From Cellulophaga fucicola (GTDB lineage Bacteria; Bacteroidota; Bacteroidia; Flavobacteriales; Flavobacteriaceae): a stretch of 64,000 nt of DNA. A program made the position numbers and the translations under genes. Below are positions 47,745 through 64,000 of this stretch, in pieces; position 1 is the first letter of the stretch, and each line of letters begins with the position of its first letter. The stretch lies in the NCBI RefSeq assembly GCF_900119145.1, contig NZ_FPIY01000001.1, forward strand, positions 186,001 to 250,000, read 5' to 3'. The notes beneath the pieces were generated by a model. The model did not search any database and was not told where the DNA came from. It was given only the letters and a program-made list of their open reading frames with translations.

Positions 47745-50681
47745 ATGCGGTTATTTTTATCAATTTCTTTATTCTTTTTTAGTTTTTTAGTAGTTAATGC
47801 TCAGGAATTAGATTCGTTAGTGCCCACTGTAGATCCTTTACTAACTAAGGATTATGTTTTGCAAAAAAGATGGGTAGATGACCAGTACAATGCTATGACT
47901 TTAGATGAAAAAGTTGGGCAATTGTTTATGGTTAGTGTAGCGTCTGATCAAAGTAAACAAGCAACAGCTAAAATTAAAGAGCTTGTTACTAAAGAACATA
48001 TTGGGGGAGTTATATTTTCTAAGGGAGGTCCTATTCGTCAGGCTAAATTAACCAACACATACCAAAAAGCAGCAAAAATACCGTTACTTATTGGTATGGA
48101 TGCAGAATGGGGTTTGGCTATGCGTTTAGATTCTACTTACGCGTTTCCTTGGAATATGACCTTGGGAGCAATTAAAAATAATGCTGTTGTAGAAAAAGTA
48201 GCAGAACAAATAGGTAAACACACCAAACGTATTGGTGTACATATAAATTTTGCGCCAGATATAGATATTAATACAAACCCTTTAAACCCTATAATAGGAA
48301 ACAGATCTTTTGGAGAACAAAAAGAAAACGTAGCTAAAAAGGGGATTGCTTTTGTAAACGGATTTGAAAAAGCAGGCGTACTGTCTAGCGGTAAACATTT
48401 TCCAGGTCATGGAGATACAGCAACGGATTCTCATAAAACCTTACCTGTCATTAATTTTACTAAAGAAAGATTAGACAGTATAGAGTTATATCCATTTAAA
48501 GAACTTATAAAACACGGAGGTTTAAGTAGTGTAATGATTGCACATTTAAATATTCCTAGTTTAGAAGAAAGACCAAATTATCCGTCATCTTTATCAGAAA
48601 ATATAGTAACTAATTTATTGCAAGAAGAATTACAGTTTAAAGGCTTAGTTTTTACAGATGCTTTAAATATGAAAGGTGTTGCAGACCATACAGATCCAGG
48701 AGACGCAGATTTAACAGCTTTTTTAGCTGGGAACGATATTTTATTGATGCCTTTAGATGTTGCAAAAGGAAAACAGAAAATAATAGAAGCTTTTAATTAT
48801 GGTGTTATTTCTGAAGAGCGATTGGCACATTCAGTTAAGAAGATTTTAAAAGCGAAATACAAAGCAGGTTTACACAAGCACAAACTAGTAAATCTTAAAA
48901 ATTTGTATGAAGATTTAAATACATTAGAAAATGACTTAGTGTATGAAGAAGCAATTGAAGAAGCAATTACGGTTGTAAAAAATAAGCTAGATTTAATTCC
49001 TGTTGTAAAACTAGAGAATAAAAAAATTGCATATTTAAGTTTAGGAGATGCGTCTGGGGATGACTTTTTACAAGAGCTAAAAAACTACACGACTATTACA
49101 GAAGTAAAAGAGGATAACTTACAAATACTGTTGCAAAAATTAAAGCAGTTTAATATTGTAATTCTTGGGCATCACAAGAGTAATGGTAGTCCTTGGAAAT
49201 CGTATAGATTTTCTCAAAAAGATTTAGAAATAGTAAAAGCAGTATCGGCATTAAGAACATCTAACTCTATCTTGGTAAATTTTGCAAAGCCATATTCACT
49301 TTTAGATATAGATATGTCTGCTTTAGATGTTGTGGTAATGGGATACCAAAACAGTACCTTGGCACAACAAAAAACTGCACAATTACTATTTGGAGCAATA
49401 GGAGCAAAAGGCAAGTTGCCTGTTTCTATAAGTTCTAAATATCCTGTAGGTACAGGAGTTAAATTTGAGTCTCTAAAAAGATTAGGGTACGATTATCCTG
49501 AGCGTGTAGGCTTAAGTAGATACGGCTTACAGAAGATAGATACTATGGTCTTGGCTGGTATAGATTCTTTAATGTTTCCTGGAGCACAAGTTTTAGTAGC
49601 TAGAAAAGGAAAAATAATTTATAATAAGAGTTTTGGTAAACCAACCTACGAGTCTACCGATAAAATTACAAACAACTACATATACGACTTAGCTTCAGTA
49701 ACCAAAATTTTAGGTACACTACCTATGATTATGAAAATGGAGGAGGAGAATAAAATTACTCTAAACAATACCTTTAAAGACTTAAATCCTGCGTATGCAG
49801 ACACCGAATTAAAAGATGTAACTGTTTTAAAAGCACTGTCTCATTATGGTAGATTACCTGCTTGGATAGCTTTTTACGTAAGTACACTAGATAAAAATAG
49901 AAAACCATCTAAGGAGTTTTATAGTAGTGAAGAATCTACAGATTACCCATATAAAGTTTTTGATCATTTATATTTAACAAAAGCCTATAAAGATTCTATT
50001 TACAATAGAATAGGTAGACAAGATTTAAAATCTAATAGATATAGGTATAGTGATGTAGGTTATTATGTATTTAAAAAGTACATAGAAGATACGTATAATG
50101 ATGATTTAGATAAGTTGGTAGATGGTTTTTTGTATCAATCTATAGGAGCAAATCGTACAGCTTACAACCCTTTAGATAAGTTTTCTAAGGATATGATTGT
50201 ACCCTCTGAAAAAGATAATTATTACCGTTATGCAACTGTACAAGGATATGTGCATGATATGGGAGCAGCAATGCAAGGTGGAGTGGGTGGCCATGCAGGA
50301 TTATTTAGCAATGCCAATGATGTAGCAAAAATTATGCAAATGTACTTACAAGGTGGTTATTATGGAGGTACGCGTTATTTTAAAGAGCGTACTATTAAAA
50401 AATTTAATACCTGCTATTTTTGCGATGAAGATGTCCGTAGAGGGGTAGGTTTTGATAAGCCACAAATAAAAGGATCAGGCTCTACCTGTGGTTGTGTGTC
50501 AAGAAAAAGTTTTGGTCATAGTGGTTTTACAGGAACCTATACATGGGCAGATCCAGAAGAAGAAATAGTGTATGTGTTTTTATCTAATAGAACTTATCCT
50601 ACCCAAAATAATAACCTTTTAGTTAAATCTGGGTTAAGAACAAGAATTCAACAAGTAATTTACGACTCCATACTAAATTAA
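47745..50681 (+). CDS. GH3 beta-N-acetylglucosaminidase fused to a class C beta-lactamase-like serine hydrolase
   Basis: A 978-residue exported bifunctional protein. Signal peptide ~1-19 (ends VNAQ). The GH3 domain (~45-400) has the NagZ-type His/Asp dyad motif KHFPGHGDT (~217-225) and the nucleophile in FTDALNMKG (~300). A GH3 C-terminal-like domain follows (~410-580). The serine hydrolase domain (~600-978) has S-x-x-K in LASVTKI (~652), Tyr in RYSDVGYY (~768) and GHSGFTGT near 929 in place of the KTG box. It could remove GlcNAc from muropeptides and trim the peptide in one pass. Known in Flavobacteria as a fused pair. Confidence 0.9.
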   Translation: MRLFLSISLFFFSFLVVNAQELDSLVPTVDPLLTKDYVLQKRWVDDQYNAMTLDEKVGQLFMVSVASDQSKQATAKIKELVTKEHIGGVIFSKGGPIRQAKLTNTYQKAAKIPLLIGMDAEWGLAMRLDSTYAFPWNMTLGAIKNNAVVEKVAEQIGKHTKRIGVHINFAPDIDINTNPLNPIIGNRSFGEQKENVAKKGIAFVNGFEKAGVLSSGKHFPGHGDTATDSHKTLPVINFTKERLDSIELYPFKELIKHGGLSSVMIAHLNIPSLEERPNYPSSLSENIVTNLLQEELQFKGLVFTDALNMKGVADHTDPGDADLTAFLAGNDILLMPLDVAKGKQKIIEAFNYGVISEERLAHSVKKILKAKYKAGLHKHKLVNLKNLYEDLNTLENDLVYEEAIEEAITVVKNKLDLIPVVKLENKKIAYLSLGDASGDDFLQELKNYTTITEVKEDNLQILLQKLKQFNIVILGHHKSNGSPWKSYRFSQKDLEIVKAVSALRTSNSILVNFAKPYSLLDIDMSALDVVVMGYQNSTLAQQKTAQLLFGAIGAKGKLPVSISSKYPVGTGVKFESLKRLGYDYPERVGLSRYGLQKIDTMVLAGIDSLMFPGAQVLVARKGKIIYNKSFGKPTYESTDKITNNYIYDLASVTKILGTLPMIMKMEEENKITLNNTFKDLNPAYADTELKDVTVLKALSHYGRLPAWIAFYVSTLDKNRKPSKEFYSSEESTDYPYKVFDHLYLTKAYKDSIYNRIGRQDLKSNRYRYSDVGYYVFKKYIEDTYNDDLDKLVDGFLYQSIGANRTAYNPLDKFSKDMIVPSEKDNYYRYATVQGYVHDMGAAMQGGVGGHAGLFSNANDVAKIMQMYLQGGYYGGTRYFKERTIKKFNTCYFCDEDVRRGVGFDKPQIKGSGSTCGCVSRKSFGHSGFTGTYTWADPEEEIVYVFLSNRTYPTQNNNLLVKSGLRTRIQQVIYDSILN

Positions 50682-50686
50682 AATAG

Positions 50687-50694
50687 TAATTTTG
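50687..50694 (+). promoter_or_regulatory. Candidate -7 promoter box immediately before bshA
   Basis: TAATTTTG, an exact TAnnTTTG match lying wholly in the 18-base gap between two genes. The start would fall within about two bases of the bshA ATG at 50700, implying a leaderless transcript. Coincidence is possible. Confidence 0.35.
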
Positions 50695-50699
50695 TTATA

Positions 50700-51845
50700 A
50701 TGAAAATAGCTATAGTTTGTTACCCAACGTTTGGAGGAAGTGGTGTAGTTGCCACTGAGTTAGGAATTGCTCTTGCAAATAGAGGACATGAGATACATTT
50801 TGTAACGTATAGACAACCGGTAAGGTTAGAGCTTTTAAACGAGCGTATACATTTTCACGAAGTAAACGTACCAGAATATCCATTGTTTCAATACCAGCCA
50901 TACGAGTTGGCTTTATCTAGTAAATTAGTAGATACAGTTAAGTTTTTTGGTATAGAAATGTTACACGTACATTATGCAATACCGCACGCATATGCGGGGT
51001 ATATGGCAAAAAAGATGTTAGAGGAAGAAGGAATTTATATTCCAATGGTAACAACACTACACGGTACAGATATTACATTGGTAGGTAAGCATCCGTTTTA
51101 CAAACCAGCGGTAACATTTAGCATTAATAAGTCTGAGGTTGTTACGTCTGTATCAGAAAACTTAAAGCAAAGTACATTAGATCTTTTTCATATAAAAAAA
51201 GAAATACATGTAGTTCCAAATTTTATAGATAAAACTAATTATAACGCAGATTATACAGATTGTCAACGTTCTTTAATGGCAAATGATAATGAGCGAATTA
51301 TAACGCACATAAGTAACTTTAGAAAGGTAAAAAGAATACCTGATGTTGTGCAAATATTTAAACAAATACAAGATAAGACTGCAGCTAAATTGGTCATGGT
51401 AGGTGAGGGGCCAGAAAAAGCAAAAGCAGAGCAATTAGCAGAAGAATTAGGTATAAAAGACAAGGTTGTTTTTTTAGGAAACAGCAACGAGGTAGATCGT
51501 ATTTTATGTTTTACAGATTTATTCTTATTACCATCAGAAACAGAAAGTTTTGGTTTGGCAGCTTTAGAAGCTATGATGCATAGAGTACCTGTAATCTCTA
51601 GCAACACAGGTGGTATACCAGAAGTTAATGTAGATGGCGTAACTGGTTATATGAGTAATGTAGGTGATGTAGATGATATGGCATTAAATGCATTAAAGAT
51701 TTTAAAGGACGATGAAACTTTAAATAGATTTAAGGATAACGCAGAAAAAGAGGCGCATAAGTTTGACATCGTAAACATTCTTCCTATGTATGAAAAAATC
51801 TATGAAGATGCCTTTAAAAAGTACTATAAAAATTTGCATCAATAA
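50700..51845 (+). CDS. bshA: N-acetyl-alpha-D-glucosaminyl L-malate synthase
   Basis: The first enzyme of bacillithiol biosynthesis, joining GlcNAc from UDP-GlcNAc to L-malate. A 381-residue GT4 glycosyltransferase. BshA-specific segments are CYPTFGGSGVVATELG (~7-22), EIHFVTYRQPVRL (~32-44), LHVHYAIPHAYAGYMAKK (~84-101) and TTLHGTDITLVG (~118-129). The donor site is PSETESFGLAALEAM (~277-291). No bshB or bshC gene is in the window. It follows the GH3 fusion by 18 bases. Confidence 0.93.
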   Translation: MKIAIVCYPTFGGSGVVATELGIALANRGHEIHFVTYRQPVRLELLNERIHFHEVNVPEYPLFQYQPYELALSSKLVDTVKFFGIEMLHVHYAIPHAYAGYMAKKMLEEEGIYIPMVTTLHGTDITLVGKHPFYKPAVTFSINKSEVVTSVSENLKQSTLDLFHIKKEIHVVPNFIDKTNYNADYTDCQRSLMANDNERIITHISNFRKVKRIPDVVQIFKQIQDKTAAKLVMVGEGPEKAKAEQLAEELGIKDKVVFLGNSNEVDRILCFTDLFLLPSETESFGLAALEAMMHRVPVISSNTGGIPEVNVDGVTGYMSNVGDVDDMALNALKILKDDETLNRFKDNAEKEAHKFDIVNILPMYEKIYEDAFKKYYKNLHQ

Positions 51846-52102: not shown

Positions 52103-53551
52103 ATGCTTTTTAATTCTATAGATTTTGCAATTTTTTTGCCGGTAGTGTTTATACTCTATTGGTTTGTTCTTAATCGTAATTTAAAAGCACAGAACTTATT
52201 ATTATTAGTTGCCAGTTATGTCTTTTATGGTTGGTGGGACTGGAGATTTTTATCTTTAATAGCGTTTAGTACTTTAGTAGATTATACCCTTGGAGTTCTT
52301 TTAGGAAAAGAAGAAAAAGAAAGTAAACGAAAAATCTATTTATGGATAAGTGTTATTGTAAATCTTGGATTTTTAGGTTTCTTTAAATACTATAACTTCT
52401 TTGTCGAAAGCTTTGTGGATGCATTTACTTTTTTCGGTCAAGATATAAAAGTAGGAAGCCTTTCTATTATATTACCGGTAGGTATTAGTTTCTATACTTT
52501 TCAGACTTTAAGTTATACCATAGACGTTTACAAACGAAACCTAGAACCAACAAAAAAGTTTATAGCCTTTGCAGCTTTTGTTAGCTTTTTTCCGCAATTA
52601 GTTGCTGGTCCTATAGAAAGGGCATCAAATTTACTGCCTCAAATACTTAAAAAAAGAACCTTTAATTATTGCGAAGCTAAAGATGGGTTACGCTTAATGT
52701 TATGGGGTTTGTTTAAGAAAGTGGTAATAGCAGATTCTTTATCGCCCATAGTAAATGATATTTTTTCTAATTATAGTACCTTATCTTCTCCGGTATTAAT
52801 TATGGGAGCTGTTTTCTTTGCTTTTCAGATTTACGGAGACTTTAGTGGGTATTCAGACATAGCTATAGGTACATCAAAACTATTTGGAATAGAATTGATG
52901 TCTAACTTTAAATTCCCTTACTTCTCTAAGAACATAGGAGAGTTTTGGAGACGCTGGCATATTTCTTTGTCTACTTGGTTTAGAGATTATCTTTATATTC
53001 CGTTAGGAGGCTCTAGAGGCTCTAAAATGGTTGGAATAAGAAATGTATTTGCTATTTTCTTGGTAAGTGGATTTTGGCACGGAGCAAATTGGACATTTAT
53101 TTTCTGGGGACTTTTTCACGCATTATTATTTTTACCTAGTTTTTTAATAGGAACCAATAGAAAATATGCAGAAGTTAAAAACACCCGTTTAAATGTGTTG
53201 GCAATGATATCTAATGTATACAGAACATTGCTAACCTTTATATTAGTTACAATTGGATGGGTCTTTTTTAGAAGTGAAACTATTACAGACTCTTTTAGTT
53301 ATTTAAAACGAATTGGATCAAGTTTTTCGGGAATACCATACATACATCCTAATGGATATAGATTAGTAGATTATATAGTGCTACTTGTATTTTTTATAGT
53401 TTATGAATACATTATAAGAAATAATGAGAGAAAGCCAATTGGCTTTAAAAATAGATATGTTCGTTTGTTTGTTTATATATTATTGGTGTTTTTAATGTTG
53501 TTGTTTTATGACGATGGTGTAGATAGATCATTTATTTACTTTCAATTTTAG
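52103..53551 (+). CDS. MBOAT family O-acyltransferase (AlgI-like), left copy
   Basis: A 482-residue polytopic membrane protein that should move an acyl (often acetyl) group across the membrane to an exported glycan. Family features are the opening MLFNSIDFAIFLPVVFILYW, LPVGISFYTFQTLSYTIDVY (~127-146), FFPQLVAGPIERA (~169-181), the FGEFWRRWHISLSTW-type loop (~275-292), and the catalytic His in SGFWHGANW (~327). It ends SFIYFQF, the same last residues as the right-hand copy. Its SGNH partner starts 4 bases later, as in AlgI/AlgJ and PatA/PatB pairs. Confidence 0.93.
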   Translation: MLFNSIDFAIFLPVVFILYWFVLNRNLKAQNLLLLVASYVFYGWWDWRFLSLIAFSTLVDYTLGVLLGKEEKESKRKIYLWISVIVNLGFLGFFKYYNFFVESFVDAFTFFGQDIKVGSLSIILPVGISFYTFQTLSYTIDVYKRNLEPTKKFIAFAAFVSFFPQLVAGPIERASNLLPQILKKRTFNYCEAKDGLRLMLWGLFKKVVIADSLSPIVNDIFSNYSTLSSPVLIMGAVFFAFQIYGDFSGYSDIAIGTSKLFGIELMSNFKFPYFSKNIGEFWRRWHISLSTWFRDYLYIPLGGSRGSKMVGIRNVFAIFLVSGFWHGANWTFIFWGLFHALLFLPSFLIGTNRKYAEVKNTRLNVLAMISNVYRTLLTFILVTIGWVFFRSETITDSFSYLKRIGSSFSGIPYIHPNGYRLVDYIVLLVFFIVYEYIIRNNERKPIGFKNRYVRLFVYILLVFLMLLFYDDGVDRSFIYFQF

Positions 53552-53555
53552 AAGT

Positions 53556-54506
53556 ATGAAAAGAGTTATATTAAAATTTGTAATATATAGTTTAGTGCTA
53601 GTTCTTGCTTTAGAATTGTTAGTTCGTGTTTTTCATTTACATAATGAAAGACCAGAACGATATTTAGATGAGTATGGCGTTGAAAAATGGGTGCCAAACC
53701 AGGAAGGATATTCTGTTACAGGAAATAGAAAACAAAATGTGGGAGCATACAGAATTAATAATTTTGGATTTAATTCTGTTTATGATGATTATACAGTATC
53801 TAAAGACAGTATAGAGGTCGCTATTGTTGGAGATTCGTTTATTGAAGGATTTCATCAAAATTATACAAACTCAATTAGTAGAAAGGTAGAAAAAAAGTTA
53901 CCCAATATAAAAGTATTAGAATTTGGATATGCAGGCTATAATTTATCTGAAGAGTTGAATTTAATAGCATCTTATAATCATCTGTTTAAAGATATAGATA
54001 GAGTAGTTATTTATATGAGGTATACAGACGATTTAATTACAGGGGAATATAAGGTATCTGGTAGATTATCTTTAGATACACCGGTAAATAGATTGCTTAA
54101 AAAAAGCAAGTTAATTGTCTATGCAAAAGATATAGGTGCTTTTGACCCTATTAAAGATAAAATTGCAGCGACAATTAACTTTGTAAAGGGTGTAAAAACA
54201 CCTGAGGTAAAAGAAACTAATAAGGATGCTATATATCTTGCGAACTTTAAAAAACTAATAAAAACATATAATTACGACAAAGAAAAAAATGTTTTATTGT
54301 TAGATTATAGTCTTTGTTCTAGTGAATTTTTGAGTTATTTAAAACAAAACAACTTTAAAACAATTGATTTTAGTTCCGATTTTATAAAGAGTAAAGAACC
54401 TAAAACTTTAATCTATGATCAGCACTGGAATAATCTAGGAAGAGAAATTATAGCAGACGAAATTGTAAATTACATTAAAAATGAAAATATTGAGTTAGTG
54501 AAATAA
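53556..54506 (+). CDS. Membrane-anchored SGNH/GDSL-like protein, left copy
   Basis: A 316-residue protein with one N-terminal helix (~5-22) and a periplasmic SGNH-like domain. Block I is VAIVGDSFIEGF (~88-99, Ser nucleophile in GDS). A Gly-containing EFGYAGYN segment (~122-129) and a C-terminal block DQHWNNLGREI (~289-299) give the Asp-His pair. It is the natural partner of the MBOAT gene just before it, probably acting as the periplasmic O-acetyltransferase or acetyl carrier step. Convergent with the GNAT array, 14 bases from its last gene. Confidence 0.8.
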   Translation: MKRVILKFVIYSLVLVLALELLVRVFHLHNERPERYLDEYGVEKWVPNQEGYSVTGNRKQNVGAYRINNFGFNSVYDDYTVSKDSIEVAIVGDSFIEGFHQNYTNSISRKVEKKLPNIKVLEFGYAGYNLSEELNLIASYNHLFKDIDRVVIYMRYTDDLITGEYKVSGRLSLDTPVNRLLKKSKLIVYAKDIGAFDPIKDKIAATINFVKGVKTPEVKETNKDAIYLANFKKLIKTYNYDKEKNVLLLDYSLCSSEFLSYLKQNNFKTIDFSSDFIKSKEPKTLIYDQHWNNLGREIIADEIVNYIKNENIELVK

Positions 54507-54531
54507 TAGTCATTACTATTTTATTTTTTGC
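54505..54531 (+). terminator. Weak terminator after the left SGNH gene
   Basis: A 6-base stem AATAGT/ACTATT (54505-54510 and 54515-54520) with a CATT loop, followed by TTATTTTTTG. It overlaps the SGNH stop codon and lies only a few bases from the convergent array. AT-only, so weak. Confidence 0.4.
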
Positions 54532-55684
54532 TAACTTTTTGATATTCATTTTCACTTATAATTAGGTAATTGTTCTCTGCTATTAGATATATTTTTATAG
54601 TATCTACGTGTTTTGTAGTTGTATAAGCAAAGTCATACATATATTTTTTTAAAAAATTATAGTCCTTAGTATCAATTGCAATTTCTTTTGAACTATTTAA
54701 ATTAAATTGTTCTGTACCTTTGGTTTTTGTTATTGCCGAAACGGTAATGTTTTCATCCGCTTCTTCAAATTGTTTGCTTTTTAGAAACTTGGTTTTAAGG
54801 TTCGGAATTATTTCATTTATTTTTTTCGCCTTTAAATTTTCTTTAAGCTTTATTTTAAAGATCTCTGTTTTTCCTTTAATCTTAGACAGGAGACTAGCTT
54901 TAGAATAGGTTATATGGTGTTCAAAATTATAAATTGTATCGCTCCACCTTCTTTTGTAATCCATACCGCCAACTCCCATTTCATAAAGCACATAGTTGTT
55001 AGTACAACACCATTCTACTTGTTTGTATATTTCAACATGGCCTAATCCAAATTTAGAATAGTTAATATCGTATGAAGAAATGGTACTAAATAACATTTTA
55101 CCAAAATGATAATTTAAAGAGATTTCTATAGGTTTGTCTTCATCATAAATAACAAAAAGGGAAGCTTGTTTGTTTTTTATTTTCTCGTAAGTTTCATCTA
55201 GTAAAATATCCCATTTATAGAGTTCTTTGTTTACTTCATTTCGCTGCTTAAATCTATTTATAATCATTTCTTTTAACGAGTTAAAAATAAACTCGTAAGT
55301 ATCTTTAGAAATTTCACCGTAATACAATTTGTAGGTTATAGAAAAACAAGCTTCTAATCTATTTACATACCTACGAATTATACTTCTGTATTTAGATTTA
55401 AATTGACGTTGTAAATAAGTGTCAATTGTAGAATCTGAATTTAAATGTATAGCATAACCCCAATTGTTCTGAGCTATTATTTTATGCGCTATTGTTGCGT
55501 CTTTTATATGTAGTTTAATATAACTTGGCACCAAACTTAAAGATAAGTTCTTAGTGTTTATATCATTGTTAATAGTAGTGTTCTCTATCTGCTCGTTAAA
55601 ATAGTTAAGAGAAGTAACTACAGAAGGGATAGAATTACCTTTGAATAAGTGTGTGTTAAATATTATTTTATTGGTTGAAGTCAT
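54521..55684 (-). CDS. FemAB/BioF2-like GNAT acyltransferase, array copy 1 (last in operon)
   Basis: A 387-residue member of a GNAT (Acetyltransf_6/BioF2-like) family, one of six adjacent paralogues. Shared blocks here are NRLEACF (~108-114), YYGEISKDTY (~121-130), RFKQRNE (~144-150), ASLFVIYDEDKPIEISLN (~174-191), YDINYSKFGLGH (~205-216), EWC (~224) and KRRW (~244). A basic amphipathic stretch (~265-310) follows, then the shared C-terminal module with YNFLKKYMYDF (~343). No signal peptide or membrane helix. It lies 19 bases after copy 2. Substrate unknown. Confidence 0.8.
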   Translation of the reverse strand: MTSTNKIIFNTHLFKGNSIPSVVTSLNYFNEQIENTTINNDINTKNLSLSLVPSYIKLHIKDATIAHKIIAQNNWGYAIHLNSDSTIDTYLQRQFKSKYRSIIRRYVNRLEACFSITYKLYYGEISKDTYEFIFNSLKEMIINRFKQRNEVNKELYKWDILLDETYEKIKNKQASLFVIYDEDKPIEISLNYHFGKMLFSTISSYDINYSKFGLGHVEIYKQVEWCCTNNYVLYEMGVGGMDYKRRWSDTIYNFEHHITYSKASLLSKIKGKTEIFKIKLKENLKAKKINEIIPNLKTKFLKSKQFEEADENITVSAITKTKGTEQFNLNSSKEIAIDTKDYNFLKKYMYDFAYTTTKHVDTIKIYLIAENNYLIISENEYQKVSKK

Positions 55685-55703
55685 TGAAACTTATTCTAAA
55701 TAT

Positions 55704-56912
55704 TTATGATGATTTAATACTTATTTTTTGAGTGTTTTTTTCTCCCTTTATATAATAAATGCTAGCTAATTTAGTGTCTTTGTAAACGCTAATGGCTGAG
55801 TTTTTTTCAAAATTTTTGTGTAAAAAATCATTTACATAAAATAAGAGGTTGCTGTATTCTTTATCTAAATAATTAATCTTCACTATTTTTTTATCTTTTG
55901 GTATAGCTACGCCATTAGTTATAATGTAGGTACTATTGTTTTGTGCGTCTTTTTTATTAGATAATCTATATTTAAATTTAATATATTTTCCATATGCTAA
56001 ATGAAATTTCATTTTTTTTAAAAGAGCTACCATTCTAAAACGAAGCTTATGAAATACTATCGTTTTTTTTGCTTTTAGTGTAGCTATTATAGATTTAGAA
56101 TTATATATAATATGCTCTTGGTATAGGTATGTTTTATTTATCCACTGACGTTTATGAAAAAAGTCTCCTCTTCCCATATCAAATAACTTTATACCATTGT
56201 CATAACACCAGCGTAAGTGTTTTATGGTGTTTAAATGCCCTAGATTATACATGCTATAATCAACATCAAAACAACTATTAAAGTGAAGCATTGTTTGTCC
56301 GTCTATAAAATTTAGCGTAATATTTATGGGTTTATCTTTGTCATAAATTACATAGATGCTTGCTTTTTTTTCAAAAATCATTTTAAACATTATTTCTTCA
56401 TAGTAGTTTAAATATGGTAATTCAAAATTATGCTCTTCTTTTTGGGTAAATCGTAAGGCCGTTATTCGTTTTAATTCTTTAAATAACCTTTTATATTCTA
56501 TTTCTTCAATTGCTCCATAGTACATAGTATATGTTGGCGCAATAGATAAGTCTAGTCTGTTTTGGTGTCTTCTAAGCTTGTTTGTTCTAGATTTACCTAC
56601 TTGGTCATTTAAAAAAGCATCACAGGTGTTGTGGTCACCAAAGTAAACAGCATAGCCGTTGTAAAGAGGAAAACTAATTTCTTTTAAGTTTGTCTCTTGT
56701 ATTGTAGTTTTTATGTCTAAATAATTAGGAATATCATATACAATACACGTTTCTATATTATATGTTTTATCTGGAGTATCAGTAGTTTTATAAACAACGG
56801 TTTTTAGGTAGTTATTTGTTATTTTATTGTAAAACCACGGAAAAGTCTTGTCTTTAAAAAAGAGATCAAGAAAAAAAGAAAATCTAGTGTGTGGTTCCAA
56901 ATTGTTTAACAT
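55704..56912 (-). CDS. FemAB/BioF2-like GNAT acyltransferase, array copy 2
   Basis: 402 residues. Array blocks are LRRHQNRLDL (~127), YYGAIEEIEY (~142), RFTQKEEHN (~163), ASIYVIYDKDKPINITLN (~190), FDVDYSMYNLGH (~222) and KRQW (~262). The region after the GNAT core is strongly basic (RFRMVALLKKMKF), suggesting contact with membrane or nucleotide-like polyanions. The C-terminal module reads YSNLLFYVNDFLHK. The 80-base gap before it, the largest in the array, could hold an internal promoter, but I find no TAnnTTTG there. Confidence 0.8.
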   Translation of the reverse strand: MLNNLEPHTRFSFFLDLFFKDKTFPWFYNKITNNYLKTVVYKTTDTPDKTYNIETCIVYDIPNYLDIKTTIQETNLKEISFPLYNGYAVYFGDHNTCDAFLNDQVGKSRTNKLRRHQNRLDLSIAPTYTMYYGAIEEIEYKRLFKELKRITALRFTQKEEHNFELPYLNYYEEIMFKMIFEKKASIYVIYDKDKPINITLNFIDGQTMLHFNSCFDVDYSMYNLGHLNTIKHLRWCYDNGIKLFDMGRGDFFHKRQWINKTYLYQEHIIYNSKSIIATLKAKKTIVFHKLRFRMVALLKKMKFHLAYGKYIKFKYRLSNKKDAQNNSTYIITNGVAIPKDKKIVKINYLDKEYSNLLFYVNDFLHKNFEKNSAISVYKDTKLASIYYIKGEKNTQKISIKSS

Positions 56913-56992
56913 AAGTGTTTACTAAAACGCGATCTATAATTGTAACGCTTTGTTTAAAATAAGTATTGTAATAGTGGTTGCGTAATAACTCT

Positions 56993-58174
56993 TTAATCTA
57001 TAATATTTAAAGACCATTTATTATTTTTAGCTACTACATAAAAATTATTTTTATTATCTAAATTTTTATAAACTTTAATGTCTTTATAGTGTTCTTTAGA
57101 CGTAAAGAGTAAATTAAAAATAGGTCTTTTTAAATAAAAATAAGCTTCATTATTTTCAAAATCTAATTGAACGCTGTTCGCAGTTAGCTGGTTCTCTTCT
57201 ATTTTAGTGTGCGTTACTTTTTTTTCTGTACTAGCGTTATGTGTCTGTTTGTGTAATTTTTGCTTTACTCTTTTATAGTACGTAATAAAATTTGCTTTTT
57301 TTAGAGTATAGTACAGTATATAAGTGCCTTTTGTTTTTATTTTTTTAGCATAAGCATTAAAACTAGCTTGTATAGAGCTAGGATCGTAAATTATGCAGTT
57401 GTAAAAATCAAAAGTAGTGGTTTTCCAATCTTTTTTGTAATAATCATAACCTTTTAGAAGATCATATGTTACTATGTTGTTTTTTATACACCATTCTATG
57501 TTTTTAAGCATGTCTAAGGAGCCTAAATGAAATTTAGAGTAATCTATATCATAGCAGCTCATTATATAGTAGCCAAGTGTTTCCTTAAACATATTAATAC
57601 GTATACTAATAGGTTTTTGGTTATTATAAATAACAAAAATGCTAGCCTCTTTCTTTAAAATTAAATTGTAGATGGTATCTTGGTATTCATCAAAATGGCG
57701 CAACTCATAGTTGTTTTCTTTTTTTTCTTCAAACCGTCTAATTAATAAAGCTTTAAGTTCTATAAATAAACTGTTATATTTTTCTTTTGTAATATCTCCA
57801 TAATAACAAGTGTAAGTAATGTCGAAACATTTTTCTAGTCTGTTTTTATAGCGTCTTAAATTAGACCTACTTTTAGTTCCAAAATTAGCAGTAAGATATT
57901 CTTCTACAGTTGTATACTTTTTTGTTTCAACTAAATATCCTTTTAGAGTTTTTAATTGTATTTTTTTTAATTTTCTAGCCTCGTTAGGTATGTATGTATC
58001 TAAGTAACCTGGTACATCAACCACCTCATAAAATGTGTTTTTGGTATTTTTTATATTGGTGCTTTTTGTAGTGTATAAAGTTTTTGTTTGGTATGTTATT
58101 TTTTTAAAAAATGGTAAGGTATTATCATTAAAAAATAAGCCTTTTAAAAATACAGTTTTATTATGTTTAGCCAT
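56993..58174 (-). CDS. FemAB/BioF2-like GNAT acyltransferase, array copy 3
   Basis: 393 residues. Blocks are LRRYKNRLEKCFDITYTCYYG (given in outline, ~117-137), RFEEKKENNYEL (~158-169), EASIFVIYNNQKPISI (~186-201), YDIDYSKFHLGS (~219-230), EWCIKNN (~238-244) and YYKKDW (~256-261). The GNAT core is followed by a basic segment with YYKRVKQKLHKQ and a C-terminal module (FYLKRPIFNLLF). Starts 2 bases after the stop of copy 4, so translation is probably coupled. Confidence 0.8.
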   Translation of the reverse strand: MAKHNKTVFLKGLFFNDNTLPFFKKITYQTKTLYTTKSTNIKNTKNTFYEVVDVPGYLDTYIPNEARKLKKIQLKTLKGYLVETKKYTTVEEYLTANFGTKSRSNLRRYKNRLEKCFDITYTCYYGDITKEKYNSLFIELKALLIRRFEEKKENNYELRHFDEYQDTIYNLILKKEASIFVIYNNQKPISIRINMFKETLGYYIMSCYDIDYSKFHLGSLDMLKNIEWCIKNNIVTYDLLKGYDYYKKDWKTTTFDFYNCIIYDPSSIQASFNAYAKKIKTKGTYILYYTLKKANFITYYKRVKQKLHKQTHNASTEKKVTHTKIEENQLTANSVQLDFENNEAYFYLKRPIFNLLFTSKEHYKDIKVYKNLDNKNNFYVVAKNNKWSLNIID

Positions 58175-58176
58175 AG

Positions 58177-59370
58177 TTAAAATGCTTTAGCAACTGTTAT
58201 TTTATAGCTTTTTTTTATTCCTTTTAAAATGAAACTTTCTTCATTTTCTTTATAAATAGTAATAGAAGTAATGGGTTCTTGCAAAGTATATAGAATATCA
58301 TAAACAGGCTTTCTTAAAAAATCATATTCTTCTCTAAATAAGTCAATAACTATATCTAATTTAGAAATATCATCATCAATATTTAGCGGTATAGTTTTAT
58401 ATTTATAATTGATATTTGTTTGTTTTAATGCCTCTTCTTTTTCTTTATTATTTTTGTTAATATAGGAGTGGTAAAGATTATCTATGTTAACTTTTTTTAG
58501 CAGTTTAATTATAAAATAGAAGCTTTTAATTTTAAAAGCTTTTATAGAGGCAGAAATAGAAGAGCGTAAATATTTTGGATCAAATGCTATCTGTTTTTGA
58601 AAGTAATATGTACTATTAGTAAATTTTGTTTTATATGAGTAAGATCCTTTTACCAAATCAAAAATTTCCATATTATTGTTAAAGCACCATTCTAATTGAA
58701 AAATTAGATCAGTAAAGCCTAAATAAAATTTAGAATAATGCACATCAAAACCTCTTACAAAACCATACAGAACTTTACCCATTACAGGAGTTAAAGATAT
58801 ACTAATAGGGTTGTTCCCGTCGTAAATTACAAATAGACACGCTCTTTTTTTATTTATTAATTCATAACCATTTTGCTCGTATCTATCCCATACAGATAAA
58901 TCATAATGTTCTGTGCCTAACAAATCAAAACGTTTTTTGATCATTTCGGGAAACTTATTAAACAGGCGGTCATATTCTATTTTTTCAATACTTCCAAAAT
59001 ATACTTTATAGCTTATATTAAAGCATTTCTCTAATCGTTTTTTATATGTATTAAATTGAGATCTTTTTTTTGCATTAAAATGTTTTGTAAGGTAATCTTT
59101 AAGATTGCTATAATTAGTTAAATTAATCATAGAACCTTTATAGGTGTTAAGCTTAATAAATTTTATGTTGTTACTCGTGGCAATAGTTGGTTCTATATAA
59201 TCCGGCACATCATTAAATAAATATGCTTTTTTATTAAAATCTAAAGGAGTAAAAGACTTATTTGCATAGAGAACGCTATTGGTAATCTTATTTTTTAATT
59301 GAACATAGAAAACCGATAAAGCCTTTGGCTTTAGAAGTATGCGGTCTAGAAAGTCTATGTTTATTAACAT
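58177..59370 (-). CDS. FemAB/BioF2-like GNAT acyltransferase, array copy 4
   Basis: 397 residues. It has the array blocks YKKRLEKCFNISYKVYFGS (~107-125), RFDLLGTEHYDL (~148), ACLFVIYDGNNPISISL (~179), FDVHYSKFYLGF (~208), EWCFNNN (~228) and YKTKF in place of the usual KxxW. The otherwise conserved tryptophan after the lysine is thus replaced, hinting at altered specificity or lost activity. C-terminal module EYDFLRKPVYDILYT. It lies 38 bases after copy 5. Confidence 0.8.
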   Translation of the reverse strand: MLINIDFLDRILLKPKALSVFYVQLKNKITNSVLYANKSFTPLDFNKKAYLFNDVPDYIEPTIATSNNIKFIKLNTYKGSMINLTNYSNLKDYLTKHFNAKKRSQFNTYKKRLEKCFNISYKVYFGSIEKIEYDRLFNKFPEMIKKRFDLLGTEHYDLSVWDRYEQNGYELINKKRACLFVIYDGNNPISISLTPVMGKVLYGFVRGFDVHYSKFYLGFTDLIFQLEWCFNNNMEIFDLVKGSYSYKTKFTNSTYYFQKQIAFDPKYLRSSISASIKAFKIKSFYFIIKLLKKVNIDNLYHSYINKNNKEKEEALKQTNINYKYKTIPLNIDDDISKLDIVIDLFREEYDFLRKPVYDILYTLQEPITSITIYKENEESFILKGIKKSYKITVAKAF

Positions 59371-59408
59371 CTTTATTTATTTGCTATAGCTTAAGCTTAG
59401 TTACTTTG

Positions 59409-60350
59409 TTATTTAACTTTGTATAATAATTTATCTAGAGAGAAGTATTTTCCTAGAATTTGTTTATCTCTTAAATACTGCAATAATCTAAATTTTAGCC
59501 GGGTTATTTTTACCCAGGCTATGTCTACTATAGCGTTGTTATTGTAGTACAATCTATTGTAAAAATTATAATGGTAATTACTCCACTTTAGTTTGTAATA
59601 AGTCTCTCCCATAGACAGATCAAAAATACTAACATTATTCTGTATACACCAAGTAATATGGTTTACCATACAGATGTCTCCTATGTTATATATAGAATAG
59701 TCAACATCATAGGCTTGTATATGACTAAAAACAATATCTCTAAGATGAAAATTTAAAGTAATGCCAATAGGCTTTTTATTGTCGTATAAAACAAATAGAG
59801 AAGCTTCTTTTTTTAAAATTTTGTGATACACATAGGTTTGTAAATTATCCCAATCTGCAAGGTATCTGTTATGTGTTTTTTTTTGGTGAAACCTGTTTTT
59901 TAATAAACTATAAAATGTCTTAAAAATTAAGAGGTAAGTATTTTTTTCAATACTACCAAAATAAACACTGTTTGTAATTTTAAAGGAGCTTTCTAATTTT
60001 TTCTGTTTAGAGCGTAAATTTTTCTGATTTCTTTTACTTAGTTGGTCTTGTAAAAAATTAGCAGTACTAACTTGGTTTTTTAGGTTCACTAAAAAGCCTT
60101 TATATTGTGGTACATCTATAAATTTTAAATTTCCTATATTTTCTTTATGCTCGGTAAGTTGTATGTAGCTTGGTATATTTATTATAAGGTGCCTACTAGA
60201 TTTATCAACAACTAAATTTTTAGCAGATGTAATAGGTGTGCTTGTAATTGAATTATATAAGGTGTCATCAAAAAATGAAGGCTTACTTCCCTCTATAAAT
60301 AGACAGAAAACAAAGTTTGTTAATTTTTTAGAGAAATATTTTTCAAGCAT
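59409..60350 (-). CDS. FemAB/BioF2-like GNAT acyltransferase, array copy 5, short form
   Basis: 313 residues, about 80-100 shorter than its sisters. The GNAT core is intact: LRSKQKKLESSFKI (~115), VYFGSIEKNTY (~131), RFHQKKTHN (~155), EASLFVLYDNKKPIGITLN (~183), YDVDYSIYNIGD (~213), TWCIQNN (~232) and YKLKW (~253). It stops after the basic LLQYLRDKQILGKYF segment and lacks the C-terminal module found in the other five. The gene has a proper stop codon, and copy 4 follows 38 bases on, so the short form may be natural. Confidence 0.78.
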   Translation of the reverse strand: MLEKYFSKKLTNFVFCLFIEGSKPSFFDDTLYNSITSTPITSAKNLVVDKSSRHLIINIPSYIQLTEHKENIGNLKFIDVPQYKGFLVNLKNQVSTANFLQDQLSKRNQKNLRSKQKKLESSFKITNSVYFGSIEKNTYLLIFKTFYSLLKNRFHQKKTHNRYLADWDNLQTYVYHKILKKEASLFVLYDNKKPIGITLNFHLRDIVFSHIQAYDVDYSIYNIGDICMVNHITWCIQNNVSIFDLSMGETYYKLKWSNYHYNFYNRLYYNNNAIVDIAWVKITRLKFRLLQYLRDKQILGKYFSLDKLLYKVK

Positions 60351-60358
60351 ACGATACC

Positions 60359-61606
60359 TTATTCTTCTAAATTATAAGCCATAAATGTAGTAACGTTTTG
60401 TAAACCTTTAATATAGTAATAATTCTGTTGGTTTGTTATTTTATAGAGCCTTACATCGTTTAATTTTTCTGATTTCTTGTATAAAAAATCATATACATAT
60501 TTTAAGAGATGTTCATTTTTAACATCAAAAATAGATAACTCTTTTAAGTTTTCTTTTACGGGACTTGTATTGTTTTTTACAGGAACTGTTTTTTCTGTTT
60601 TTTTTGTATTGTTCTTAAGAGCAAATGTAAGTTGATGAAATTTTTTATGAATATTCTTATCTCTTAAATAATTTTTAAAATTAAAAAAGAGTAGCGTTAT
60701 GTGCATCGTTATTTTTGATACAATAGACTTAGAGTCATAGACAATATGGTATTCAAAATTATACGTTGTTGTTGCCCAACGTTCTTTATACTCATAATAA
60801 CCTTTAGAGAAATCTAAAAACTTAATGCCATTGGCAATACACCAATCTAGTTGTTTAATAATACTAGTAGTTCCAAGTCTAAAAGGCGAGTAATCAATAT
60901 CAAACACTCTAATGGTATCAAAAGCAATAGTGTCAGAAAAATTTAATAAGGTAATTGCAATTGGTGTTTCTTTGTTGTAGGTAACAAATAATGCCGCTTT
61001 TTTCTCTAACAGCATTGGGTAAGTCACATCAAAATAAAAGTCCCATTCTTTTGGGTCTAAATTATTATTAGTCTCCTGTTTGTCATTAAAACGTTTTATA
61101 AGTAATTTTTTAAAAGCTGAAAAAAGAGAGTTGTATTTTTCTTTAGTAATAGTTCCATAATACATATTATAACTAATGTCAAAAGAGTGTTCTAGCTTTC
61201 TTTTGTATAGATTAAACTTGTAATTACTGTTCTTACTAAGCCTTTTTTGCATATACTCCTTAACACTTAAAAAGTTTTCTAACTCACATAAGTAACCAGG
61301 GTATTGTATCGTTTTTTTTATTTTATATCTAGAGTTGTTTAAAACACTTTGGGTATTAAAAAAAGTATGTACATCATAAATTAAAAAAGTCTTTTTTAAT
61401 GACGTGTTACTTTCTTCTTTGGCAATAGTGTAGGTAATTCCTTTTGTATTTGTTTTAGCAGTATTTATATATACTAGTTTTTTAGCGCTTTTAAAAAAGC
61501 TAAGATCTGGAAACAGGTTAAACGATACTTCCTTTTGGTCATCCAAAAAATGACTCAACCACTTTTTTATAAAAGTTTTGCTAAGAAAAGGATTGTTGTG
61601 TATCAT
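60359..61606 (-). CDS. FemAB/BioF2-like GNAT acyltransferase, array copy 6 (first in array)
   Basis: 415 residues, the longest copy. Blocks are YKRKLEHSFDISYNMYYGT (~139-157), RFNDKQETNNNL (~180), AALFVTYNKETPIAITLL (~211), FDIDYSPFRLGTTS (~241), DWCIANG (~260) and YKERW (~279). The segment NYLRDKNIHKKFH after the core is close to that of copy 5. A Lys/Thr-rich linker then leads to the C-terminal module LLKYVYDFLYKK. It starts 12 bases after the right SGNH gene, tying the array to the MBOAT-SGNH pair. Confidence 0.8.
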   Translation of the reverse strand: MIHNNPFLSKTFIKKWLSHFLDDQKEVSFNLFPDLSFFKSAKKLVYINTAKTNTKGITYTIAKEESNTSLKKTFLIYDVHTFFNTQSVLNNSRYKIKKTIQYPGYLCELENFLSVKEYMQKRLSKNSNYKFNLYKRKLEHSFDISYNMYYGTITKEKYNSLFSAFKKLLIKRFNDKQETNNNLDPKEWDFYFDVTYPMLLEKKAALFVTYNKETPIAITLLNFSDTIAFDTIRVFDIDYSPFRLGTTSIIKQLDWCIANGIKFLDFSKGYYEYKERWATTTYNFEYHIVYDSKSIVSKITMHITLLFFNFKNYLRDKNIHKKFHQLTFALKNNTKKTEKTVPVKNNTSPVKENLKELSIFDVKNEHLLKYVYDFLYKKSEKLNDVRLYKITNQQNYYYIKGLQNVTTFMAYNLEE

Positions 61607-61618
61607 TTTTTAATAGAA

Positions 61619-62578
61619 CTACTTTTTTTTAGAATCTGATAAAAGTATACTTTTAACATCGTCGCTTAAGGTTTTACTGAACTTTTTAGCACTTTCAGAT
61701 ACCATATGTGTTCCATCATATGTATTGTATTCAGAACTTGTTTCAGAATAATCTAAAAACGAAATATTTTTTACTTTAGCAATGCTGTCAAACTGATAAT
61801 TAAAATTCTCCCACTTTTCATTTTCAAGTTTTAAATTTTCTGGGGTTAAAGGCATACGTACTATAAAAACATCTCCTTTTTGTTTTAAGTAGTCTATTGT
61901 TTTTGCAAAGCTTAGAAATCTAATTTTACTAATTTCTTGTGTTTTTAAAAATTTATCTTGAAATTCAATTGTCTTTTTTTTCCAATTAGTAATATCTTCT
62001 TCCGTAACGGTATAAGATTTACTTTTTAATTTAAACTCATTCCATCCGTTTGGGTGTGCCACTAAGTTATCCCATTTATTAGTTGGGTAAAATGCATTGT
62101 ATAGAGAAATTGGGTAACAATTACTAATATAATCAAAATTTGGAGCAGAAGTAAAATTAGTAATTTTACCAAGAATTTTCTCTTTGTCTAGTTTTTCTAA
62201 GGCAGACTCATCTAAGTTTTTTACAGAGCTAAAACTAATAGGAGAAACAGATAAAATAAATAAACCTTTTTTAGTGGATTTTTTCAACTTGTTTTCTATA
62301 GCGTTTAAATAAGTATCTCCATACTGAGACTGCTCAAAGTTAATGGCAAAATTAACCATTGGTTTATCTAAATTAAACTCACTTAAATTGTCTTCAAATA
62401 TTTGAGGCGAAATGCCTTGACTTGCAGTAGATACTCCTATTATAAGACTACCAGCTTCTTGACAGAATTTCGGATAATTTTCATCTACATAACCAGTAGA
62501 TACTTTATACATAAAACTAAAGTACACGCCAGTTAATACTACACAAAACAGAATTATTTTTAATAAGAAATGTTTCAT
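61619..62578 (-). CDS. Membrane-anchored SGNH-like protein, right copy
   Basis: About 319 residues from the ATG at 62578, 4 bases after the MBOAT stop. A longer frame from 62635 would overlap MBOAT and bury the anchor. One N-terminal helix (~5-22) is followed by a periplasmic domain with block I SLIIGVSTASQGI (~43-55), where GVS replaces the usual GDS, MVNFAINFEQSQYGD (~74-88, Asn block) and a C-terminal YDGTHM (~290-295) supplying Asp and His. It is not closely similar to the left SGNH protein. Presumed O-acetylation partner of the MBOAT. Confidence 0.75.
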   Translation of the reverse strand: MKHFLLKIILFCVVLTGVYFSFMYKVSTGYVDENYPKFCQEAGSLIIGVSTASQGISPQIFEDNLSEFNLDKPMVNFAINFEQSQYGDTYLNAIENKLKKSTKKGLFILSVSPISFSSVKNLDESALEKLDKEKILGKITNFTSAPNFDYISNCYPISLYNAFYPTNKWDNLVAHPNGWNEFKLKSKSYTVTEEDITNWKKKTIEFQDKFLKTQEISKIRFLSFAKTIDYLKQKGDVFIVRMPLTPENLKLENEKWENFNYQFDSIAKVKNISFLDYSETSSEYNTYDGTHMVSESAKKFSKTLSDDVKSILLSDSKKK

Positions 62579-62582
62579 AAGA

Positions 62583-64000
62583 CTAAAATTGAAAATAGAT
62601 GAAAGAGTTCTGTCTGTTAATTCCAAATAACACAATAACTAAGATATAAGCAAAGCATATGAGCCATTTACGGTATTTAGGTTTATCTAGAACTAGTTCA
62701 TACACTTTATCGTTTCCTTTGTAATAATGAATTATTTGTACAATAATTATAAAAAGTACGCATAAAAATAACTCTAGGTAATTGTTAAGCAAGTTAATGT
62801 GTAAACTTCTTAAATTAAACATACTTTTTATATAAAGTATGGCACTAGATACAGATGATGATCTAAAAAATACTAGCGATATTAAGAAGTAAGCAAATCC
62901 AAAAAACCAATGAATTTTGTTTAAGAAAAATTCTAGAAATTTAAATTTTGCAATTAATGCTTTTTTGCTTGGCTTAACAATACTTACTTCAAGTATAATT
63001 AGTAAGGCATTTAGCATACTCCAAACAACAAAAGTCCAGTTGGCTCCGTGCCATAAACCAACAATAAAAAATACAATTAATGTAGCTGTTAATTTGTTAA
63101 GTTTTACTTTATTTATAAGAGGCAAGTAAATATAATCTTTAAGCCATAACATTAAAGATATGTGCCATCGTTGCCAAAAATCAGAACTATTTTTCGCGAA
63201 AATTGGTCTGTTAAAATTCTGCATTAAATCTACACCTAATATTTTAGCAGTACCTATTGCAATGGTTGTATATGCAGAAAAATCATAATAGATCTGGAAC
63301 ATAAAGAAGATAGCACCTAATATTAGAGAAAATCCATGGGGACTTTCTGGATCTGCATAAGCCTCATCTACATATATACCTAGTCTGTCTGCAACTACAA
63401 TTTTTAGAAAAAATCCCCAAGCCATCATAATTAGGCCTTGTTCAATATTTTTAATATTAATAGTTACCTTTTTCTTTAACTGTGGCAATAAAGTAGATGC
63501 TCTCTCTATTGGCCCAGCAACTAACTGCGGAAAATACCCTACATATAAAGCAAAAATACCTAAGTGCCTTTCTGGCTTTATATTTCCTCTATACACATCA
63601 ATGGTATAACTCATTGTTTGAAAAGTATAGAATGAAATTCCTACAGGTAGTAAAATCTGACTTATATGGTAACTTTGCTCAGCCTCTTCAAGAGGTATAG
63701 ATATTCCAAAAAATTCTAATAAACTGGCAAGTGATGTAGAGAAAAAGAATAAATACTTAAAAGCTACTAGTATGCCTATGTTTACAAAAATACTAATACC
63801 GGCAAAGATTTTTTTTGTTCTTTGTATATCGGTAGCATAAATTTTAAGAGCACAGAAATAATCTACTACAGTAGATGCTATTAGTAATAAAACCAAAGCA
63901 GGTTCAGATTTCATATAAAAATAATAACTACCAATTAGTAGCCATATCCATCTAAACTTATGAGGTATACAATAGAAACCTATAACAATAAGCGGTAGAA
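62583..64000 (-). CDS. MBOAT family O-acyltransferase (AlgI-like), right copy, 5' end outside the window
   Basis: The frame stays open through the right edge, so the ATG at 63914 is internal and perhaps 25-35 residues are missing. About 470 residues are visible. Motifs match the left copy: PVGISFYTFQTMSYTIDVY, YFPQLVAGPIERA, FWQRWHISLMLW and the catalytic His in GLWHGANW. It ends NSFIYFQF. First visible gene of the right-hand operon (MBOAT, SGNH, six GNATs). The promoter must be beyond base 64000. Confidence 0.93.
   Translation of the reverse strand, partial: LPLIVIGFYCIPHKFRWIWLLIGSYYFYMKSEPALVLLLIASTVVDYFCALKIYATDIQRTKKIFAGISIFVNIGILVAFKYLFFFSTSLASLLEFFGISIPLEEAEQSYHISQILLPVGISFYTFQTMSYTIDVYRGNIKPERHLGIFALYVGYFPQLVAGPIERASTLLPQLKKKVTINIKNIEQGLIMMAWGFFLKIVVADRLGIYVDEAYADPESPHGFSLILGAIFFMFQIYYDFSAYTTIAIGTAKILGVDLMQNFNRPIFAKNSSDFWQRWHISLMLWLKDYIYLPLINKVKLNKLTATLIVFFIVGLWHGANWTFVVWSMLNALLIILEVSIVKPSKKALIAKFKFLEFFLNKIHWFFGFAYFLISLVFFRSSSVSSAILYIKSMFNLRSLHINLLNNYLELFLCVLFIIIVQIIHYYKGNDKVYELVLDKPKYRKWLICFAYILVIVLFGINRQNSFIYFQF

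Follow-up and report, generated by a model that had tools for sequence, protein, structure and literature searches.

The 64,000-nucleotide stretch analysed here, referred to as the window, covers positions 186,001 to 250,000 of the forward strand of contig NZ_FPIY01000001.1 (G000:C8:186001-250000) in the 3.9 Mb genome of Cellulophaga fucicola, a member of the Flavobacteriaceae (assembly GCF_900119145.1). An original prediction, made from the sequence alone, had described a row of six same-strand genes of one FemAB/BioF2-like GNAT family. At this locus we find six complete open reading frames (ORFs) of 313–415 amino acids (aa), all on the minus strand and occupying exactly 54521–61606. They are named P1 to P6 in their 5′ to 3′ order, and each belongs to the orthologous class of the same name.

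60359–61606, minus strand: P1, array gene 1, 415 aa; PF13480 at 30.3 bits; model predicted local distance difference test (pLDDT) 93.6
59409–60350, minus strand: P2, 313 aa, without the C-terminal domain; PF13480 at 42.2 bits
58177–59370, minus strand: P3, 397 aa; PF13480 at 21.4 bits (cut-off 22)
56993–58174, minus strand: P4, 393 aa; PF13480 at 44.7 bits
55704–56912, minus strand: P5, 402 aa; PF13480 at 40.7 bits; model pLDDT 90.9
54521–55684, minus strand: P6, final array gene, 387 aa; PF13480 at 33.8 bits

The intergenic gaps from P1 to P6 are 8, 38, 2, 80 and 19 bases, mostly 2–38 as predicted, with a single gap of 80, and this operon-like layout is in line with the proposed co-transcription. 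Just outside the window, at 2.6 kb upstream of P1, lies a seventh copy (P7; PF13480 at 45.4 bits). The GC (guanine plus cytosine) content of the array is 26.2%, compared with 32.3% in window positions 1–52000.

PF13480 (Acetyltransf_6, BioF2-like), one of two families named in the original prediction, matches all six proteins (E-values from 3e-4 to 2e-11), with five of the six passing the curated cut-off. In NCBIfam the array proteins give weak matches only, far below cut-off. Pairwise identity among the six is as low as had been supposed (26.6–31.8% of aligned columns), and the N-terminal regions, described as differing, are poorly conserved. The alignment nevertheless holds 29 invariant columns. 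The conserved blocks singled out earlier lie within these, except that the W of the YKxxW block is not present in all six. Since a profile built from the six proteins detects relatives in other genomes with E-values down to 1.8e-153, the shared core is beyond chance.

Recurrence, orthologous classes and gene order

A profile search of 100 genomes, including that of the host, gave matches in 15: 4 of 18 from the same genus, 10 of 43 from other members of the family and 1 of 39 from other families of the order, the last being a weak, partial match. The genomes with arrays have 7 (host), 8, 6, 7, 6, 7, 7 and 7 copies, counting pieces at contig ends, and six further genomes have one or two copies each. 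Among 109 genomes from across the phylum, only one weak, partial match was found besides the host, and ten other genomes of the same family had no match. In a second survey, genome contigs were scanned with class P1 and 80 loci of 164 relatives were analysed; four of these come from genomes also present in the first survey (L062 = G003, L063 = G007, L064 = G018 and L094 = G036). All but one of the 80 loci are filed under Flavobacteriaceae, the remaining one being titled (Muricauda) lutisoli. With fragments counted, each locus of about 20 kb holds one copy (20 loci), two (28), three (11), four (2), five (1), six (9), seven (8) or eight (1). The array therefore recurs in other Flavobacteriaceae with a copy number varying from 1 to 8, as had been anticipated. 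The closest named relatives of P1 are in Cellulophaga sp. 20_2_10 (87% identity) and F20128 (63%). An Arenibacter locus (L078) holds fragments of array genes.

In a first maximum likelihood tree of 62 rows, representing 61 genes (P5 of G003 is entered twice, as the overlapping stretches L043 18501–19709 and L044 23–709), the genes of the Cellulophaga-like genomes, G023 and G036 group by array position, every position being a separate clade with support of at least 99/96. The classes were then carried over to a larger set of 269 rows, which excludes copies shorter than 290 aa or scoring below 100 bits. Here the P5 and P7 labels reach nodes with support of 71 and 75, so that P7 is a mixed group, and 33 of the 269 rows have no P label. 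Proteins of class P2 are 313–352 aa long.

The order P1 to P6 is kept in all 16 loci that hold at least four of these classes, which span Cellulophaga, Arenibacter, Flavivirga, Flaviramulus, Gaetbulibacter and further genera; P3 is doubled in six of them and P6 in two, whilst P5 is missing in three. P1 leads in 58 of 60 multi-copy loci, and in the other two it is preceded by P7, which lies beyond MBOAT and SGNH-like genes. Because the loci were retrieved with P1, its presence is by construction, but its position is not. Class P1 also occurs alone, and in other genera it is followed by other classes. Where adjacent same-strand copies have no intervening gene (128 of 157 pairs), the median gap is 12 bases. 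From these sequence comparisons, the six are old orthologous classes that predate the genera compared. A recent tandem duplication of the six is ruled out by the per-position clades across genera and by the kept order.

Some copies depart from the general pattern. Cellulophaga sp. 20_2_10 has a tandem doubling of P3 on one contig (L043 14809–15987 and 16043–17236; L062), which is not recent because the end branches in the tree are about 0.7–0.9 changes per column. P1 lacks the C-terminal domain (332–339 aa) in L094, L096, L097, L100, L104, L106, L108, L114 and L137, where it is the first array gene, and retains it in Cellulophaga (413–415 aa). Copies 2 and 3 of Robiginitalea sediminis (L112 11251–13226) have very long branches and an odd amino-acid composition.

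Every copy compared is under purifying selection. Between the host and G003, the ratio of non-synonymous to synonymous substitution rates (dN/dS) is 0.14–0.19 for P1, P2, P4, P5, P6 and P7; P3, compared with each of its two copies in G003, gives 0.19 and 0.30. The array genes nonetheless evolve faster than seven other genes compared between the same genomes (0.01–0.12).

Fold, active site and class-specific residues

We built AlphaFold2 models of two of the six proteins, P1 and P5, from window and P1-survey proteins (the mean pLDDT values are those listed above). The top Foldseek matches in the PDB, with E-values from 1.6e-10 to 5e-7, were 2hqy (a Bacteroides thetaiotaomicron protein of unknown function), MprF domains, FemX, Sbb17 and Sba18. 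The PDB titles of the last two name aminoacyl-tRNA-dependent peptide synthases, solved with streptothrisamine. FemX was matched at E 3e-8 by P1 and 1.5e-7 by P5, with template modelling (TM) scores by query length of 0.37–0.47, and ATE1 came next in the ranking (1.5e-6 and 4.9e-6). Both modelled proteins thus show the predicted GNAT fold, in tandem as in FemX, and judged by the models their nearest neighbours appear to be tandem-GNAT enzymes, chiefly aminoacyl-tRNA transferases. P6, P7 and P1 also show weak similarity, below cut-off, to arginyl-transferase families (E about 0.004), which is consistent with this fold group.

Lys274, Gly245 and Gly269 are invariant in all 269 rows, and in 261 of these Lys274 directly follows Y, H, W or F. 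In FemX, Phe304 and Lys305 are essential (PMC4964394). By motif and modelled fold, Lys274 would be the counterpart of FemX Lys305. The consensus acyl-coenzyme A (CoA) P-loop given in the same review (Gln/Arg-x-x-Gly-x-Gly/Ala before helix 3; PMC4964394) is in place in only 2 of the 269 rows; the pattern occurs anywhere in the sequence in 21 rows, compared with about 5% of shuffles.

Class-specific residues were scored at 207 positions in 14 loci of the window's array type. Thirteen positions are conserved within classes whilst having at least three residues among the six, and nine of these fall in the second GNAT domain (88 of the 207 scored positions; P = 0.04). Class-specific residues include 230, 233, 243 and 266–268. 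Residues 266–268, directly before the invariant Gly269 and Lys274, read FSK, LSM, LLK, LLK, MGR and MGV from P1 to P6; P3 and P4, which share LLK, differ after Gly269. The active-site loops therefore differ by class, as expected from the variable pocket residues that had been proposed, and support specialised paralogues. P1 has a similar loop whether the locus is single-copy or large, suggesting that it performs one shared reaction across loci.

The exopolysaccharide cluster around the array

Four neighbouring genes lie wholly or partly within the window:

52103–53551, plus strand: MBOAT_a, second MBOAT gene, convergent to the array; PF03062 at 103.7 bits
53556–54506, plus strand: SGNH_a, SGNH-like, 14 bases from the P6 3′ end; sub-cut-off matches to ALGX (E 0.006) and Lipase_GDSL (E 0.013)
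61619–62635, minus strand: SGNH_b, SGNH-like by motif reading, 12 bases upstream of P1
62583–64000, minus strand: MBOAT_b, MBOAT O-acyltransferase clipped by the window edge, whole in L010 584–2032; PF03062 at 106.5 bits

The SGNH_b ORF is given with a TTG start, although a downstream ATG is likelier, and Pfam gives no match over cut-off for it. The stretches of the cluster beyond the window (L010 and L011) hold, in addition to the seventh copy, a Cupin_8/JmjC protein, a FemAB-like protein (FemAB_x) and a PglD-type acetyltransferase fused to a FemAB-like domain. They also hold a Bac_transf sugar-phosphate transferase, four recognised glycosyltransferases, a UDP-glucose dehydrogenase and an epimerase. 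A PylC-like ATP-grasp protein, Acyl_transf_3, EpsG and a polysaccharide pyruvyl transferase are also present, with DegT and a PglF-like Polysacc_synt_2 protein on the opposite strand. Wzx, Wza and Wzc were assigned by reading of the sequences, and the flippase is best called Wzx-like. Since the polysaccharide genes lie upstream, and MBOAT_a and SGNH_a (52103–54506) converge on the array from the other side, the array forms the 3′ terminus of an exopolysaccharide (capsule) cluster of the Wzx/Wzy type. The earlier remark that no polymerase, flippase or glycosyltransferase lies within the visible array is correct for the array itself, but beyond the window there are glycosyltransferases, a polymerase of the EpsG type and a Wzx-like flippase, and inside it the array has MBOAT genes on both sides. 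The PglF-, DegT- and PglD-like genes imply one evident amino sugar.

FemAB_x adjoins P1 directly upstream in 59 of the 80 loci, and SGNH_b does so in 11. A FemAB_x profile finds the solved FemX structure at E 6e-8, and its Phe294-Lys295, aligned on FemX Phe304-Lys305, is invariant in 29 of 29 rows (numbering counted along the alignment); by these sequence criteria FemAB_x is a FemX homologue. It is rarer in loci with at least four copies (11/21) than in smaller loci (57/59). MBOAT-like genes (51/80 loci) and SGNH-like genes (54/80) show no relation to array size.

We made three further observations on the cluster. The fusion of a PglD/NeuD-type hexapeptide acetyltransferase to a FemAB-like GNAT (L010 5298–6995) hints that both domains might act on one amino sugar. 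GH3/beta-lactamase-type and BshA-like genes (window 47745–51845) both stand beside the locus in 20 of the 80 loci, a recurrent flank suggesting that exchangeable polysaccharide clusters occupy a constant place in the chromosome. An asparagine-synthase-like amidotransferase is present in the single-copy clusters L060 (G057) and L050 (G022), with none among the matches listed for the window's cluster.

Proposed function and its alternatives

On balance, and by a narrow judgement, we read the array as a tailoring module of the exopolysaccharide cluster, i.e. an ordered set of specialised FemX-fold transferases, probably tRNA-dependent, acting on the polysaccharide precursor. Each enzyme would have its own acceptor or step, adding acyl groups in the cytoplasm, most likely amino acids from aminoacyl-tRNA. 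The likeliest acceptor would be the amino group of the 4-amino-6-deoxy sugar to which the PglF-, DegT- and PglD-like genes point. Flipping and polymerisation of the decorated precursor would follow, and its O-acylation on the other side of the membrane may fall to the MBOAT proteins and their SGNH-like partners. It is the amino-sugar genes, together with the precedents of HfsK and Orf11, that lead us to precursor-decorating transferases with tRNA as the likelier donor. Marine polysaccharides are known to contain 4-amino sugars with N-acyl groups, including amino acids (PMC3210612); we also drew on PMC13390465, PMC10115844 and PMC8131360.

HfsK and its paralogues CC2278 and CC1244 modify the holdfast exopolysaccharide of Caulobacter crescentus (PMC5362036). 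As described in the available part of that source, HfsK resembles the array proteins in being a FemX-like tandem GNAT with a C-terminal extension and paralogues of about 30% identity. It is needed for a normal exopolysaccharide adhesin, and the array is likewise encoded with exopolysaccharide genes. However, the three HfsK paralogues are scattered, whereas here there is an operon-like, ordered six plus one, and the C-terminal domain has about 75 residues, folded in the P1 model, compared with 25 in HfsK. Orf11, a FemX-like enzyme, loads an amino sugar from Gly-tRNA (PMC12945691). Together with Sbb17 and Sba18 of streptothricin-type pathways, it shares the fold and sets a precedent for placing a tRNA-borne aminoacyl group on an amino sugar; in the source material available these are single enzymes of small antibiotic pathways, shorter and without the C-terminal domain. 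FemX, FemA and FemB share with the array the tandem GNAT fold, the occurrence of several paralogues as a set and, probably, the aromatic-Lys motif (PMC4964394), but the array has no PF02388 match, a capsule rather than a peptidoglycan context, and up to eight copies. The aminoacyl-phosphatidylglycerol synthase domain of MprF has the same fold and ranks high in the fold search, but MprF has a lipid acceptor and a fused flippase domain, neither of which is seen in the array.

Several observations weigh against a tRNA-dependent, FemX-like function. PF02388 (FemABX), the second family named in the original prediction, matches none of the six proteins at E ≤ 1, a sequence search of solved structures with array proteins A2, A3 and A4 gave no match, and a profile comparison of the array with FemAB_x was not significant; the kinship with FemABX therefore rests on fold and motif. 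The TM-scores by query length (0.37–0.47 for P1, 0.33–0.40 for P5) are below 0.5, and those by target length reach at most 0.60 and 0.49, so the likeness is one of fold and is not close. Lys274 was equated with FemX Lys305 by motif and fold rather than by residue superposition. Some CoA-using GNATs have atypical P-loops (PMC4964394), so a missing consensus P-loop is not proof, and the CoA-binding tandem GNAT VipF is also a fold match (E 3e-6 to 2e-5). No tRNA genes were found in the window, L010, L011 or L012. The array proteins are basic (median isoelectric point 9.3), but FemAB_x is not (6.55); basic charge was therefore dropped as a sign of tRNA binding, and is no proof of tRNA use by the array. 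Finally, a source on a Cellulophaga O-polysaccharide mentions pseudaminic acid, with no aminoacyl groups in the part available.

A less probable alternative is that the enzymes depend on acyl-CoA or an acyl carrier, not on tRNA, and N- or O-acylate the same polysaccharide, with a sugar position or acyl chain specific to each enzyme. The PF13480 annotation is that of an acetyltransferase domain, the fold matches include VipF, and PglD-like and Acyl_transf_3 acyltransferases are encoded in the same cluster. Against this stand the near-absence of the consensus P-loop, the higher ranking of aminoacyl-tRNA enzymes over VipF, and the FemX homologue next door. We think it unlikely that, instead of an exopolysaccharide, the enzymes modify a membrane lipid (as MprF does) or a peptidoglycan precursor (as FemX does). 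MprF domains and FemX are among the best fold matches and basic proteins would also suit a membrane surface, but in the genomes studied closely the array stands at the end of exopolysaccharide clusters, with no lipid or peptidoglycan gene recognised beside it.

The copies might instead form a reservoir of alternative specificities, used one at a time or recombining, an idea already raised in the original prediction. Low identity and variable copy number would fit, as would the doubling of P3 or P6 in 8 of the 16 ordered loci. We consider it improbable and do not favour it, because the six copies are intact, closely spaced on one strand and in an order common to several genera, with dN/dS of 0.14–0.30. 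Redundant or decaying duplicates without separate roles are hardly credible: fragments do occur elsewhere (e.g. in Arenibacter L078) and dN/dS exceeds that of the seven other genes, but six intact ORFs under purifying selection, classes older than the genera compared and class-specific active-site residues all speak otherwise.

Under the tailoring reading that we prefer, the division of labour among the enzymes can be narrowed. Among the first 25 families listed for each cluster, the host cluster has seven array enzymes for four glycosyltransferases and one sugar-phosphate transferase; single-copy G057 has five and two, and single-copy G022 three and one, where a GT2 may be hidden below those listed. 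These counts, from three clusters only, disfavour one enzyme per sugar, leaving as options that the enzymes serve several positions on each sugar, use different donors, or build a chain. The earlier suggestion of enzymes with different acceptors or positions on one glycan thus stands as regards specialised paralogues, whilst one enzyme per glycan position is doubtful.

The chain in its full form, in which the enzymes would assemble a peptide side chain on the capsule without ribosomes, is speculative and in our view rather doubtful. P1 would put the first amino acid from aminoacyl-tRNA on the repeat-unit amino sugar, and P2 to P6 would add one specified residue each in turn, like FemX, FemA and FemB. 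Gene order would be the order of action, copy number (1–8) would set side-chain length, and Cupin_8/JmjC-type proteins would hydroxylate the added residues. Such proteins are present in 8 of 21 loci with at least four copies and in none of 59 with fewer (P = 7e-6, overstated because the loci are related and the flanks short). They lie at L010 3385–4209 and in L062, L063, L075, L083, L121, L132, L139 and L141, sometimes within arrays. Weaker relatives within 7 kb of the single copies in G046 and G057 count against a link to large arrays.

We did not find the array described in the open-access papers searched. Known FemX-fold enzymes belong to cell-wall, lipid and antibiotic pathways, where they occur as single proteins or small sets, and the array is a larger, conserved and ordered set. 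PF13480 is a large family with few known donors, and the array provides seven natural variants of it with class-specific signatures. With five to seven members in conserved order in the capsule clusters of marine Flavobacteriaceae, it would be a model for the division of acceptors among paralogous transferases, and it would allow one to ask whether exopolysaccharides are decorated by bacteria with amino acids or peptides derived from tRNA.

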